The notes under the pieces: generated by a model
Database searches by the model: none
What the model saw: the letters and a program-made list of their open reading frames with translations, nothing else
What the model was told of the DNA's origin: nothing
Made by a program: the position numbers and the translations under genes
Part shown: positions 29,386-35,057 of the stretch, piece after piece
Layout: each line of letters begins with the position of its first letter
Numbering within the stretch: position 1 is the first letter of the stretch
Assembly (NCBI GenBank): GCA_030747175.1
Contig: JASLLE010000004.1
Span: forward strand, 1-64,000
Origin: Dehalococcoidia bacterium
Lineage (GTDB): Bacteria; Chloroflexota; Dehalococcoidia; Lucifugimonadales; Lucifugimonadaceae
Reading direction: 5' to 3'
Length of the DNA stretch: 64,000 nt

Positions 29386-29471
29386 GCCGAGGTGGCGAAA
29401 TGGTAGACGCGCTACGTTCAGGACGTAGTGTCCTTACGGACGTGCGAGTTCGACTCTCGCCCTCGGCACCA
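29386..29471 (+). tRNA. tRNA-Leu (CAG anticodon)
   Basis: A class II tRNA with acceptor stem GCCGAGG / CCTCGGC, anticodon stem CTACG / CGTAG with loop TTCAGGA (anticodon CAG, reads CUG), and a long variable arm (GTCCTTACGGAC). Discriminator A and encoded 3' CCA at 29469-29471. Confidence 0.95.
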
Positions 29472-29516
29472 TCCTTCCCTCAAGCCCGGTCGGGCCGGAA
29501 GGACCGAAAAGTACAT

Positions 29517-29592
29517 GCGCCTGTAGCTCAGCGGATAGAGCGCAGCCCTGCGAAGGCTGAAGTCGTGAGTTCAAATCTCACCAGGCGCGCCA
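29517..29592 (+). tRNA. tRNA-Arg (GCG anticodon)
   Basis: Standard cloverleaf: acceptor GCGCCTG / CAGGCGC, D arm GCTC...GAGC, anticodon stem CAGCC / GGCTG with loop CTGCGAA, T arm GTGAG / CTCAC, discriminator G and encoded CCA. The anticodon is GCG, reading CGC and, by wobble, CGU. Most bacteria read these with tRNA-Arg(ACG) modified to inosine, so G34 is unusual. 45 bp after tRNA-Leu, probably the same transcript. Confidence 0.95.
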
Positions 29593-29798
29593 CTTTCCTG
29601 GATCATCGGGGCGTGGGAATAAACCACCCCCGCGCGGTCGTACCTGCCTCCCCATCGGGTCACTTTCCACTTCGTGACGACGCGCGGCCGGAGTCTCCGG
29701 CTCTCGTTGTAAACTGAATTTGAGGGTGAATGGGTCTGACTTCGAGATCGGCCAGGGCCGTGATTCAACCTCGCCGGGGTCGACAATCGCGCGTTCCC

Positions 29799-29875
29799 GG
29801 GCGGTTAGCTCAGCTGGTTAGAGCACCTGCCTTACAAGCAGGGGGTCGCAGGTTCGAGTCCTGCACCGCCCACCA
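29799..29875 (+). tRNA. tRNA-Val (TAC anticodon)
   Basis: Acceptor GGGCGGT / ACCGCCC, anticodon stem CCTGC / GCAGG with loop CTTACAA (anticodon TAC), T arm GCAGG / CCTGC with loop TTCGAGT, discriminator A, encoded CCA at 29873-29875. 206 bp separate it from tRNA-Arg; no gene is supported in that gap. Confidence 0.95.
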
Positions 29876-29952: not shown

Positions 29953-30924
29953 TTGGCCACGACAACCGGTCCCGAGCTACTGGCACGGGAAATCGTTCAG
30001 AACGTCGAGAAGGTGATCGTCGGCAAGACCGCCGTCGTCGAACTCGTCGTGATCGCCTTGATCTCGCGCGGCCATGCCCTGATCGAAGACGTGCCGGGCG
30101 TCGGCAAAACCATGCTGGCCCGCAGCGTTGCGCGATCGGTCGGATGTGATTTCCAGCGCATTCAATTCACGCCGGATTTACTGCCCAGCGACATCACCGG
30201 GGTCTCGTTCTACAACCAGAAGAGTTCGGAATTTGAATTCAGACCCGGACCGATCCTCTCGCAGATCGTCCTGGCCGACGAGATAAATCGGGCGACCCCC
30301 AAGACACAGTCGGCATTGCTCGAAGCGATGGCGGAACGCCAGGTGACCGTGGAGGGTGTCACACACCGCCTCGCCGATCCCTTCATGGTGATGGCGACCC
30401 AGAATCCGATCGAGTATGAGGGCACCTTCCCCCTGCCGGAAGCGCAACTGGACCGTTTCTTTCTGCGCGTCAGGGTCGGCTACCCGACTATGGACCAGGA
30501 GATCGCCATCCTGGACAGCCAGATCCTGGCGGAGCCGATAGACAACCTGGAACCGGTAGCAAATCCGGGGGACATTATCGAACTCCAGAACGCAGCCCGG
30601 AACGTTTACGTTCACGATCTGATCAAGGAATACATCGTCGCGCTGACCAACGAAACGCGCGACCACCAGGACGCCTCGCTCGGCGTATCGCCACGAGCGT
30701 CACTGGCGCTCATGCGCGGCGCACAGGCGCGTTCCATGATCGATGGGCGCGACTATGTATCGCCGGATGATGTGAAGTCCATTGCGAGAGCCGTGATGGC
30801 ACACAGGTTGATCATCTCGCCGGCGGCGCGGATGCGCGGGGTCAACGGCGAAGACCTGATAGGCGAGGTGCTCGACTCCGTGCCGGTCCCGGGCGCCGAG
30901 GTCGGCGGTCCGGCGCGCGGATAG
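29953..30924 (+). CDS. MoxR family AAA+ ATPase
   Basis: 323 residues. AAA_3/MoxR core: Walker A DVPGVGKTM (46-54), Walker B VLADEINRATPKTQ (106-119), sensor 1 MATQNPIEYEGTFPLPEAQLDRF (split motif) and a C-terminal lid domain. MoxR ATPases act as chaperones for maturation of partner proteins, often with VWA or DUF58 proteins. Start TTG 29953 has GAGAGGGA 5-12 nt upstream. First gene of a moxR-DUF58-transglutaminase operon. Confidence 0.9.
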   Translation: MATTTGPELLAREIVQNVEKVIVGKTAVVELVVIALISRGHALIEDVPGVGKTMLARSVARSVGCDFQRIQFTPDLLPSDITGVSFYNQKSSEFEFRPGPILSQIVLADEINRATPKTQSALLEAMAERQVTVEGVTHRLADPFMVMATQNPIEYEGTFPLPEAQLDRFFLRVRVGYPTMDQEIAILDSQILAEPIDNLEPVANPGDIIELQNAARNVYVHDLIKEYIVALTNETRDHQDASLGVSPRASLALMRGAQARSMIDGRDYVSPDDVKSIARAVMAHRLIISPAARMRGVNGEDLIGEVLDSVPVPGAEVGGPARG

Positions 30925-30933
30925 GCCTCGGCC

Positions 30934-32364
30934 GTGTTGACCGCCCGCCCCGCCATCTCACGCCGGCCTTCAGTGTCCGCAAGACGGTCCCGCGGGCGGC
31001 GGATTGGACACTGGATTTACGATCATCGCCGGGCGGCGATCGTCGTCCTTGTCACCATCCTGACCTTCACCTCCGGAATGGGGACGGGATTCACGCTCTC
31101 CTTCAGGCTCGGGTACGTCCTGGTCATCATGCTGGCCGTGGCGTTCGTATGGTCCCGGATCGGCTTCGCCCGGATCGATGCCAGGGTTCGGCGCCCGAAC
31201 AGGCCAATGCGCGTCGGCGAGCAGCTATCGGAAACGGTTGAAGTCGCCAACCACGGAGGATTGCCAAACCCCTGGATAGAAATCGAAGAAGTGACCGATA
31301 TCCCGGGAGTGCGCGCGGGCCGGGTAATCGACATGCCGGGCGTGATCGTAAATCGAAGTTTTGAAGTTGAAGCGCCGATGGTCCAGCGCGGCGAGTTTGC
31401 TCTTGGCCCGTTAATCGTCCGATCCGCCGACCCGTTCGGGTTGTTCCCGAACTCCAGACAGTACCAGGGTATCGACCGCCTGCTCGTATACCCGCGTGCC
31501 GTTGCGATTCCGGATTTCGCCATGGCACACCTCAATCTGAGTGGTGACGCGGGCGACCGTCGCCGAACCCATCTCGTGTCGCCGCACGTGTCGTCTGTTC
31601 GTGACTACGTTGCCGGCGACAGCATGAGCCGGATCCACTGGCCGAGCACGGCTCGTCACTCCAAGTTAATGGTCAAACTTTTCGATCAAGGTGAGGCGGG
31701 CGAAGTCCTGGTGGTCTTCGATCAACACCGTTCTACGGTCGCCGGACACGACGCAGAGTCCGCCGACGAATACGGGGCGGCCGTGGCAATTTCGGCCATC
31801 GAAAAGTACCTCGGCATGCAACTCCCGGTCGGCTACGTCTCGTACGGCAGTCACCCGATGACCACGCCACCGGTCCGAGGCGGAGGACAGCTTGAAGCGA
31901 TCACAAGAAACATCGCCATAAGCAGGCCGGAGGGGGACGTGGACCTGGTCGACATCCTCGCCGAACTGGATCCGTCGATCGGAGCGAACACGGCGCTCGT
32001 GGTAGTCACTGCGTCGCGATCCGCATCCAGCCCGAATAACTGGATTGCGGCGCTTCAGGGCCTGGCCCGGCGTGGCGTCAACGTCACCGTGGCGCTTATG
32101 GACCGGGAATCGTTCCTGGACGACGACCAGGTCACCGGGGGCGATGCCGACTCCAACTCGGGCGTACTCGTGGATCTCGTCAGCGCGGGGGTCAGGACCT
32201 ACCTGCTGAAACAGGGAGAGCGGCTGGCCAGTTCGCTGACCGATCCTGTTCGGGAGACAGAGATCGCCGGTCCAGATCATGAATTCGGCATAGCCGGGCA
32301 AAGCGTCGTTGAACGCGGTGAAGAAGATGGTCTGGCCAGCGCCGCGGCGGGAGTCGGCGATTGA
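30934..32364 (+). CDS. DUF58 domain membrane protein
   Basis: 476 residues with a basic N-terminus, two predicted transmembrane helices (about 34-54 and 59-75), a beta-rich region, and the DUF58 signature VRDYVAGDSMSRIHWPSTAR (222-241). The C-terminal part resembles a VWA-like fold. DUF58 proteins are usual partners of MoxR and transglutaminase-like proteins; the molecular role is not established. GTG start 9 bp after moxR; stop overlaps the next start (TTGA). Confidence 0.88.
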   Translation: MLTARPAISRRPSVSARRSRGRRIGHWIYDHRRAAIVVLVTILTFTSGMGTGFTLSFRLGYVLVIMLAVAFVWSRIGFARIDARVRRPNRPMRVGEQLSETVEVANHGGLPNPWIEIEEVTDIPGVRAGRVIDMPGVIVNRSFEVEAPMVQRGEFALGPLIVRSADPFGLFPNSRQYQGIDRLLVYPRAVAIPDFAMAHLNLSGDAGDRRRTHLVSPHVSSVRDYVAGDSMSRIHWPSTARHSKLMVKLFDQGEAGEVLVVFDQHRSTVAGHDAESADEYGAAVAISAIEKYLGMQLPVGYVSYGSHPMTTPPVRGGGQLEAITRNIAISRPEGDVDLVDILAELDPSIGANTALVVVTASRSASSPNNWIAALQGLARRGVNVTVALMDRESFLDDDQVTGGDADSNSGVLVDLVSAGVRTYLLKQGERLASSLTDPVRETEIAGPDHEFGIAGQSVVERGEEDGLASAAAGVGD

Positions 32365-35057
32365 GTACCAGTACGCTGAGCCGGCCGGCGACGAACGGTA
32401 TTGAAATTACCGGCCGGGTCCGGCGAGTTTTGGAGATCGCCGGACACATCGCCGGCATCAGCGGCCTTGAAGGGCTCATCACTTACGTCCTTCTTGGCCT
32501 GATGGCGCTCGTGGTCGCATGGTCCGTTCAGCTGGCTGACTGGGGAGACTCCCCGGTCCTGATCTGGACGGTACTTACCGGCGCAGCCCTGGGCGTCGCG
32601 TTCACCCGTTCCCTGGGCCCGTGGCCGTTACGCCACCTCGCCGGGATCATGATCGGCGTGCCTTTTGCTATCTGGCAGGTCTCGTCCAATGCGGACGGCA
32701 CAAACGTTATCGCCCGATTTGGCGATACCTGGACCCGGCTCGAAATATGGATCGATATCGCAAGGGCGGACGGCATTAGCACGGACCCGTTGCCGTTCAG
32801 TGTTTTCCTGTCCGTCATCGCCTGGATCGTTGCCTATACCGCCGGGTGGAGCCTGTTCAAATGGCGGTCGCCGTGGGCGCCGTCGTTCATTTTTGGGATC
32901 GCGATCCTCACAAACCTGAGCTATAGATTCGGCCAGTTTGAGTACACCTTCTATTTCTTCGCGGCGATTGCCATTGCCCTGTTTGCCCACCTGACCCTGG
33001 TTAACACCCGCCGCCGGTGGGACGCTGCCGGTATCCAGTACTCCCATGGAATTAGCCTCGACAGCATCATGACGCCGATCCTGATCGGAGCAATCGTTGT
33101 CGTGATCGCGGGATTCATGCCCATGTACAGAATCCGGCCGGAGACCCTGGACCGGGCATGGGGAGCGATGAAGGATCCGTTCCGCGACGGACTCGGAGGC
33201 CACGCGTCGCGGTTGTTCCCGAACGTTGGAGGCGTCGGATCGGGCGATTTGGGCGCTTTCGATCAGGTCCTCGCCTTCAAGGGAAGTATCAAGTTCAAAC
33301 AGGACCCACTGTTCTTTGTCGAGTCACGGTACGAGACGCTCAACCCGGCGCGCGCTTACGCCGTTTATACATCGCAGGGATGGCTTGCGGGGCCCGTCAC
33401 CGAGGTCACCCGTCAACCGTCCGAGTCGTTGCCCCTTGAGGGAACCCTTCTTGAGCGTATCGCCGTCGAGCAGCGCCTCGTCTCGGACGAAGAAAGATTG
33501 GGATTCGCTATCCCCGGCGACTACACCCTCAATATCGACCGCCCTTACATCTCGGAAGAACTCCCGCCGCTACGAGTTCGGCTAAACATGGTGGAGGGTA
33601 CGCTCGACCCAAACCTCCCGGAAGATGTCATTGCTTACTCCGACGCGCTCAGGGAGATTTACGTCAACTCAGACCTCATCACCGCGCCGAGGGTTGACGA
33701 TGTGATCGCAGAACTCCTGCCGCCCGACCTGGAGATAATCGAGTTTGAGGAAAGAAACGGCGCTCTGGAATGGATAAGCGTCGAGCGTATCAGCGAGCCG
33801 ATTTTCGACCAGCTGGCGGTTCGCTTCACTGAACGCGCCGAAACGGGCGAACCGATCATCGTGCAACGGTTGTTGTCGCAAGCCACGGAAGACCAGCTCA
33901 ACGAAGCCGGAACCGAATACCCGCTGTGGGTGACGGACCGGTATCTCCAGTTGCCGGGGACGCTTCCCGACGAGGTAGCGGACCTCGCCGGTCAGATAAT
34001 CACTGATGCCCGGGCTGTCACGCCGTACGAGAAAGCTGAAGCCCTGGTCGCCTATCTACAGGGTTTCGGATACAGCCAGGATATTGAGGGTCCGGGACCG
34101 AAACAAGATGGAGTTTCTTACTTCCTGTTCGATACCGCTCTGGAACCCTGCCGGGGTGACTCCGTCGGCCCCCGGTGCGATGACGATGGGGCGAAAGGCT
34201 ACTCCCAGTATTTCGGCTCGGCCCTCGCCGTCATGTTGCGTACCCAGGGCGTGCCGGCGCGCATGATCTCTGGATTCAAGGCCGGCGAGTTTGATCCGGT
34301 GCGCGCCGGCTTTGTGATCCGGGATGTCGACAGCCACGGTTGGGCGCAGGCTTACTTCCCTGAATACGGTTGGATCGATCTGGAATCCACTCCCGGCGCG
34401 TCTCAACCGGTGCGTGGTGTGCTACCAGAAATGGAGATAACGGTGTCGTCGGGAACCGACTCTTTCGCCGCCGGTGCCGACCTGTTCACAGAGACCGGGG
34501 AATCCCCGGTGGGGACGGGCGATGGCCCTGACCTGGATCAACTTCTGAGCGCCTCCGGCCGGGACAGTTCGACGCCGGTCTGGCCGTTCATTGCGGGCGT
34601 GGCGACCATGCTGGCATTCATCGGCGGCGTCTTCGCATGGCGCTGGCGCTACTGGGCGATGTCGCCGACCGGCCGAGCCTACGCCGGTATGTCTCGATTG
34701 GGCTGGCTCTCCGGGACCGGACGACGACCGCATGAAACCCCCGGCGAGTACGCTCTGCGGCTCGGCGAGATAGCTCGTGACGCCGATGATGGGGCACAGG
34801 CGATAGCAACGGCCTTCGAGATTGAAACGTACGGCGGACGCGAGGTCCCGGAAGCGGTTCACGAGGGTGCAAAAGACGAGTGGCCGACGGTTCGCTGGGC
34901 GCTGTTGCGGCGGTCTCTGCTCCGGCTAATCGGGGTCAAACCGCGACCCCCGCTCAGGGTGATGATGGCCAATCCGGTACAGCGCCCCCTTTACTCCAGC
35001 CTGGCCGCCGCAGAGATGGAAATTTCAGACGGGTCCGGAGTACAGGCCGGCGCTTGA
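32361..35057 (+). CDS. TgpA-like membrane transglutaminase homologue, catalytic Cys replaced
   Basis: 898 residues. Several N-terminal transmembrane helices (within about 40-260), a long external region, a transglutaminase-like core, one more TM helix (about 735-755) and a cytoplasmic DUF4129-like tail containing HETPGEYALRLGEIA. In active homologues the core reads GYCxYFA...DSHAW...DPTP. Here it is GYSQYFGSALAVML (Ser615), DSHGW (His659) and DLESTPG (Glu675 in place of Asp). The Cys nucleophile is therefore Ser and the acidic residue changed, so transamidase or protease activity is doubtful. An insertion of about 20 residues with two Cys precedes the core. Start TTG overlaps the DUF58 stop by 4 bases. 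Confidence 0.85.
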   Translation: MSTSTLSRPATNGIEITGRVRRVLEIAGHIAGISGLEGLITYVLLGLMALVVAWSVQLADWGDSPVLIWTVLTGAALGVAFTRSLGPWPLRHLAGIMIGVPFAIWQVSSNADGTNVIARFGDTWTRLEIWIDIARADGISTDPLPFSVFLSVIAWIVAYTAGWSLFKWRSPWAPSFIFGIAILTNLSYRFGQFEYTFYFFAAIAIALFAHLTLVNTRRRWDAAGIQYSHGISLDSIMTPILIGAIVVVIAGFMPMYRIRPETLDRAWGAMKDPFRDGLGGHASRLFPNVGGVGSGDLGAFDQVLAFKGSIKFKQDPLFFVESRYETLNPARAYAVYTSQGWLAGPVTEVTRQPSESLPLEGTLLERIAVEQRLVSDEERLGFAIPGDYTLNIDRPYISEELPPLRVRLNMVEGTLDPNLPEDVIAYSDALREIYVNSDLITAPRVDDVIAELLPPDLEIIEFEERNGALEWISVERISEPIFDQLAVRFTERAETGEPIIVQRLLSQATEDQLNEAGTEYPLWVTDRYLQLPGTLPDEVADLAGQIITDARAVTPYEKAEALVAYLQGFGYSQDIEGPGPKQDGVSYFLFDTALEPCRGDSVGPRCDDDGAKGYSQYFGSALAVMLRTQGVPARMISGFKAGEFDPVRAGFVIRDVDSHGWAQAYFPEYGWIDLESTPGASQPVRGVLPEMEITVSSGTDSFAAGADLFTETGESPVGTGDGPDLDQLLSASGRDSSTPVWPFIAGVATMLAFIGGVFAWRWRYWAMSPTGRAYAGMSRLGWLSGTGRRPHETPGEYALRLGEIARDADDGAQAIATAFEIETYGGREVPEAVHEGAKDEWPTVRWALLRRSLLRLIGVKPRPPLRVMMANPVQRPLYSSLAAAEMEISDGSGVQAGA

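Follow-up and report, generated by a model that had tools for sequence, protein, structure and literature searches.

A conserved serine at the nucleophile position of TgpA-like transglutaminase homologues in a branch of Dehalococcoidia

Background

TgpA of Pseudomonas aeruginosa (PA2873; structures 6g49 and 6g4h) is an active transglutaminase, and the transglutaminase gene has been reported as essential in this species (PMC3507681). Operons combining MoxR, DUF58 and transglutaminase genes are widespread.

Replacement of Cys by Ser usually cripples thiol enzymes. Several papain-like families are based on Ser in place of Cys (menin, APC5867, DUF2145, DUF2272 and DUF3750), and the activity of some such families has been proposed without proof (PMC10318531). 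Bleomycin hydrolase and congopain retain some activity after a change of Cys to Ser (PMC10318531). Glu is ordinary as the third triad residue (PMC4866520), and it works in this role in an active Cys-His-Glu NAT (4dmo). The open-access literature searched yielded nothing on transglutaminase in Dehalococcoidia and only a general papain-like survey on serine-type transglutaminases; neither of the two clades defined below, Ser and dead, was described there.

Data and methods

The survey covered 60 relatives, 294 genomes of the class, 301 genomes of the phylum and 80 named loci, and recovered several hundred domains. Most named records were Chloroflexota MAGs, SAR202 and Dehalococcoidia among them, and the outgroups came from Paenibacillus, Acidobacteria and others. 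A FastTree phylogeny of 248 rows was calculated with the three triad residues masked and was complemented by a mixture-model tree of 96 rows and a tree of 56 rows.

Results

The window, meaning the whole analysed stretch of 64,000 nucleotides, contains the MoxR-DUF58-transglutaminase triad with the full transglutaminase architecture. Pfam domains, hydropathy and neighbouring genes all agree with the earlier note on this point. The MoxR and DUF58 genes adjoin the transglutaminase gene upstream on the same strand:

29953..30924, + strand: MoxR-type AAA ATPase gene, 323 aa (Pfam AAA_3, 219 bits, and AAA_lid_2)
30934..32364, + strand: DUF58 gene, 476 aa (Pfam DUF58, 53.5 bits), with a stop that overlaps the transglutaminase start
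32361..35057, + strand: TgpA-like membrane transglutaminase homologue, 898 aa, with Ser at the nucleophile position
34014..34385, + strand: Transglut_core domain, residues 552-675 (Pfam PF01841, 51.6 bits, E 1.3e-13)
34689..34871, + strand: DUF4129 domain, residues 777-837 (Pfam PF13559, 36.3 bits)

The transglutaminase reading frame opens with a TTG start overlapping the DUF58 stop and has no internal stops. Hydropathy peaks at 38-250 mark the N-terminal membrane helices, and the DUF4129 domain follows the final predicted membrane segment (hydropathy peak 746-753). The Transglut_core score lies above the curated cut-off of 23 bits. Three tRNA genes (Leu-CAG, Arg-GCG and Val-TAC, at 29386-29875) are located directly upstream of the MoxR gene.

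The active-site residues were placed by alignment and structural modelling:

34071..34073, + strand: Tyr571, an active-site marker (identity 94% in the Ser, 100% in the Cys and 35% in the dead group)
34203..34205, + strand: Ser615 (TCC), nucleophile position of the core helix by alignment to TgpA, and first residue of model helix 335-348
34335..34337, + strand: His659 (CAC), catalytic His position by alignment to TgpA
34383..34385, + strand: Glu675 (GAA), acidic triad position by alignment to TgpA

The phmmer alignment to TgpA (6g49) pairs GFCAH with GYSQY, the TgpA His with His659 and the TgpA Asp with Glu675, in agreement with the earlier proposal that the nucleophile aligns with Ser615. The transglutaminase site of the window protein has no Cys nucleophile; Ser615 occupies the position and there is no other Cys at the site. 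The AF2 model of residues 281-738 (pLDDT 84.6, pTM 0.85) matches TgpA 6g4h with a Z of 23.2 and an rmsd of 3.5 over 256 residues, and 6g49 likewise at a Z of about 23. His659 lies within a strand of the model and Glu675 just past the next strand. Glu675 does sit at the acidic position, as the earlier note had stated, but the Asp-to-Glu difference can be ruled out as a special change. Glu is ordinary among Cys-type relatives, occurring in 94/112 Cys-type rows (those outside the Ser and dead clades) with Asp in 17/112.

Ser615 and the Cys pair are the same in all seven orthologues of the same genus (70-75% identity), and open frames are full-length throughout the genus. All family orthologues that can be read at the site have this combination too, which makes it neither a chance occurrence nor a sequencing error. 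The Ser-for-Cys difference is real and conserved, and it is broader than the earlier note described, being common to a branch of Dehalococcoidia. Ser-based papain-like proteins are characterized by a negatively charged active-site pocket (PMC10318531); here, charge was calculated for the whole domain, with a mean of -6.9 in Ser forms versus -5.6 in Cys forms.

With identical domains removed, the residues at the nucleophile, His and acid positions were C-H-E in 105, S-H-E in 79 and C-H-D in 17 domains, next to a large group without the triad (F-Y/W/F-N/S, plus rarer A, P and V forms); these are counts and not frequencies, as the named set was found with a Ser-type alignment that favours Ser-like sequences and the class and phylum loci came mostly from the top of match lists. 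In the FastTree phylogeny, 78 rows form a Ser clade (support 98) with 74 Ser and 4 Cys, and 48 rows form a dead clade (support 100) with F in 41, S in 3, P in 2, A in 1 and V in 1. The mixture-model tree recovered both clades in much the same form, with the four Cys rows nested at two places (96 and 99). The base of the Ser clade was poorly resolved in the 56-row tree, where the Ser row L069 fell outside the clade. Four further Ser rows (L076, L043, L098 and L249) are located within Cys clades, all with His and Glu kept. L042 (Cys) and L043 (Ser, TCT) are a well-supported sister pair having His and Glu in both. Three Ala rows of the main family (L111, L122 and L134) keep His, with Asn as the acid.

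The dead clade has lost the triad entirely, with His in 0/48 and Glu in 0/48 rows. The substitutes are mostly Phe at the nucleophile, Tyr, Trp or Phe at the His and Asn or Ser at the acid. All 13 dead-clade loci examined (L320-L330, L337 and L338) have the MoxR-DUF58-transglutaminase order on one strand. In the main family, examined over the same flank, this order is present at 2/3 Ser loci and 2/2 Cys loci (L334 and L335); the third Ser locus, L333, has DUF58, with no MoxR detected in the sequence piece examined. DUF58 is upstream in 39 of the 40 Ser-clade loci with enough upstream sequence. The intact operon of the dead clade indicates that the module persists even where all of the transglutaminase residues are gone and thus does not always need catalysis. 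A different output of the locus, as suggested earlier, is better backed by this sister clade than by the window protein itself. Within the dead clade, L131, L157 and L208 have Ser without His and acid, and this Ser probably derives from Phe via a single base change.

All rows of the Ser clade (78/78) have either Ser or Cys at position 615, the nucleophile position, from which Ala, Thr and Gly are absent. His, which the earlier note had recognized as retained at 659, is present in 78/78 rows and so is Glu. Over the 48 substitutions per site of the Ser subtree, parsimony gave 16 changes for the median column, two for column 615, both involving Cys, and none for columns 659 and 675. The same three columns changed 7, 6 and 7 times over the 29 substitutions per site of the dead clade. 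Tyr571 and Gly642 follow this pattern with 3 and 4 changes in the Ser clade versus 22 and 27 in the dead clade; both residues persist in Ser and Cys forms and are lost from the dead clade. Domains of the Ser clade are as little as 27% identical in pairwise comparison, with a median of 49%, hence the conservation is not shallow. The Ser-clade codons comprise 61 AGY, 13 TCN and 4 Cys TGY, and the codon set changed at least 7 times when the changes to Cys are counted. The codon set switched between TCN and AGY about five times with Ser kept. As such a switch requires either a tandem change (PMC6872785) or a Thr or Cys intermediate, the Ser side chain itself is selected. Clade-wide purifying selection acts on exactly 615, 659 and 675.

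Two cysteines precede the active site, as had been noted earlier, and could be located in a family-specific insertion of about 19 aa:

34137..34193, + strand: insertion, residues 593-611, before the active site and absent from other members of the order
34149..34151, + strand: Cys597, first of the Cys pair, in 27/27 family members
34176..34178, + strand: Cys606, second of the Cys pair (CX8C here), in 27/27 family members

Cys597 and Cys606 are the sole cysteines of the window transglutaminase. The pair is probably a structural disulfide in an extracytoplasmic family-specific loop flanking the site.

The genome of the window has only one other PF01841 match (L290, G000:C74:26727-29084), which lies outside the window and is Ser-His-Asp. 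Relatives of this second paralogue include Cys-His-Asp forms in part of the order and Ala-His-Asp forms in many members of the family. Wherever an Ala-type row can be read at all three positions, His and Asp are retained. Other copies have been truncated or split (L305 and L306), and G001 and G003 contain remnants. The Ala-His-Asp forms indicate that His and the acid can persist without the nucleophile, so that conserved His and Glu are weaker proof of catalysis. The absence of Ala sets the main Ser clade apart from this paralogue.

Discussion

The window protein has, in our assessment, about an even chance of being a working Ser-His-Glu acyl-transfer or hydrolase site in a TgpA-type membrane protein. 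The earlier note had left the choice between a serine-based hydrolase and a binding-only protein. This remains the right pair of alternatives, of which the comparison among relatives favours a maintained Ser-His-Glu site. The extracytoplasmic transglutaminase-fold domain would keep an acyl-enzyme site that was rebuilt on serine. Ser615, the N-terminal residue of the core helix, would be the nucleophile attacking the substrate carbonyl, with His659 as the general base oriented by Glu675. The ester intermediate might then be passed to water or an amine, in which case the protein would not be a classical cross-linker but a hydrolase, an amidase or a slow transferase. MoxR and DUF58 might assemble or regulate the transglutaminase at the membrane. 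More broadly, we tentatively propose, at slightly less than even probability, that a hydroxyl nucleophile naturally replaced a thiol across the lineage, with repeated Ser-Cys exchange, and that the Cys, Ser, Ala and Phe series may represent a module with catalytic and non-catalytic modes.

A binding-only pseudoenzyme is the main rival and quite conceivable, though we place it clearly below an even chance. The Ser-His-Glu pocket would hold a peptide, glycan or cell-surface ligand, the domain would serve MoxR-DUF58 as a sensor or scaffold, and the sister clade would extend the same role with a Phe-Tyr-Asn type of pocket. Such a role could account for the 48 relatives without any of the triad, their operon being intact wherever examined, and for the second paralogue, whose Ala forms retain His and Asp. 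Inactive members of the fold are on record as well (EPB42/protein 4.2, FBXO21 and Rad4; PMC10318531). However, ligand binding offers no obvious reason for the limit to Ser or Cys at 615 over 48 substitutions per site, when the dead clade allows F, S, P, V and A in the same column, nor for the alternation of Cys and Ser in the Ser clade while His and Glu stay fixed. A decaying enzyme, in which Ser would be a near-neutral first step of loss with nothing maintained, appears improbable. The class does include complete loss, as well as Ala forms with partial loss and the dead-clade Ser rows L131, L157 and L208 without His. Yet none of the 78 rows of the Ser clade shows a change of His or Glu, positions that changed 6 and 7 times in the dead clade. 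Ser was kept through codon-set switching, and the frames are open and full-length throughout the genus.

The earlier note had further raised the idea that a cysteine of the insertion might reach the site and act as nucleophile. Both Cys597 and Cys606 are at most 18 residues from Ser615 and invariant in the family, and either could in principle pair with His659. Most members of the Ser clade lack both cysteines, though, but still retain His and Glu: in 50 of the 51 outside the family of the window, the 40 residues preceding the site contain no Cys. The two are also conserved as a pair in a disulfide-like manner, and the core helix starts at Ser615, where the papain-like nucleophile always sits. 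We regard a displaced cysteine as very improbable.

Dehalococcoidia provide a natural mutant series of one operon, in which the site is Cys, Ser, Ala or fully dead. Through this series, both the need of the module for catalysis and the operation of a transglutaminase fold on serine become testable. A transglutaminase fold working with serine would bear on thiol-versus-hydroxyl chemistry. More speculatively, the serine swap may possibly also matter for organisms that live in oxic water, where a thiol would be exposed.

The maintained Ser-His-Glu site that we suggest can be set against four described or sampled groups. Like the window protein, TgpA has TM helices, an extracytoplasmic Transglut_core domain and the same fold (Z 23), and its gene comes last in a co-transcribed cluster of three (PMC3507681). 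TgpA differs in its Cys-His-Asp triad and measured transglutaminase activity, whereas the window protein is Ser-His-Glu; identity in the structural alignment is 20%, and the window protein has the added loop with the Cys pair. Nearer relatives are the Cys-type TgpA-like proteins of Chloroflexota (for example L063, L190 and L224), which share the domain with His and Glu and, at the loci examined (L334 and L335), MoxR-DUF58 upstream, but differ by the Cys nucleophile. The dead-triad sister clade (for example L320-L330) shares the homologous domain and the MoxR-DUF58 operon and differs in the replaced triad. The Ser-based papain-like families (PMC10318531) resemble the Ser clade in having a conserved Ser for Cys with the other two residues kept, as in the 74 Ser rows. 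They are other families, however; those listed in that survey include none from PF01841, and it describes no series of Ser, Cys and dead sites within one operon such as the one found here.
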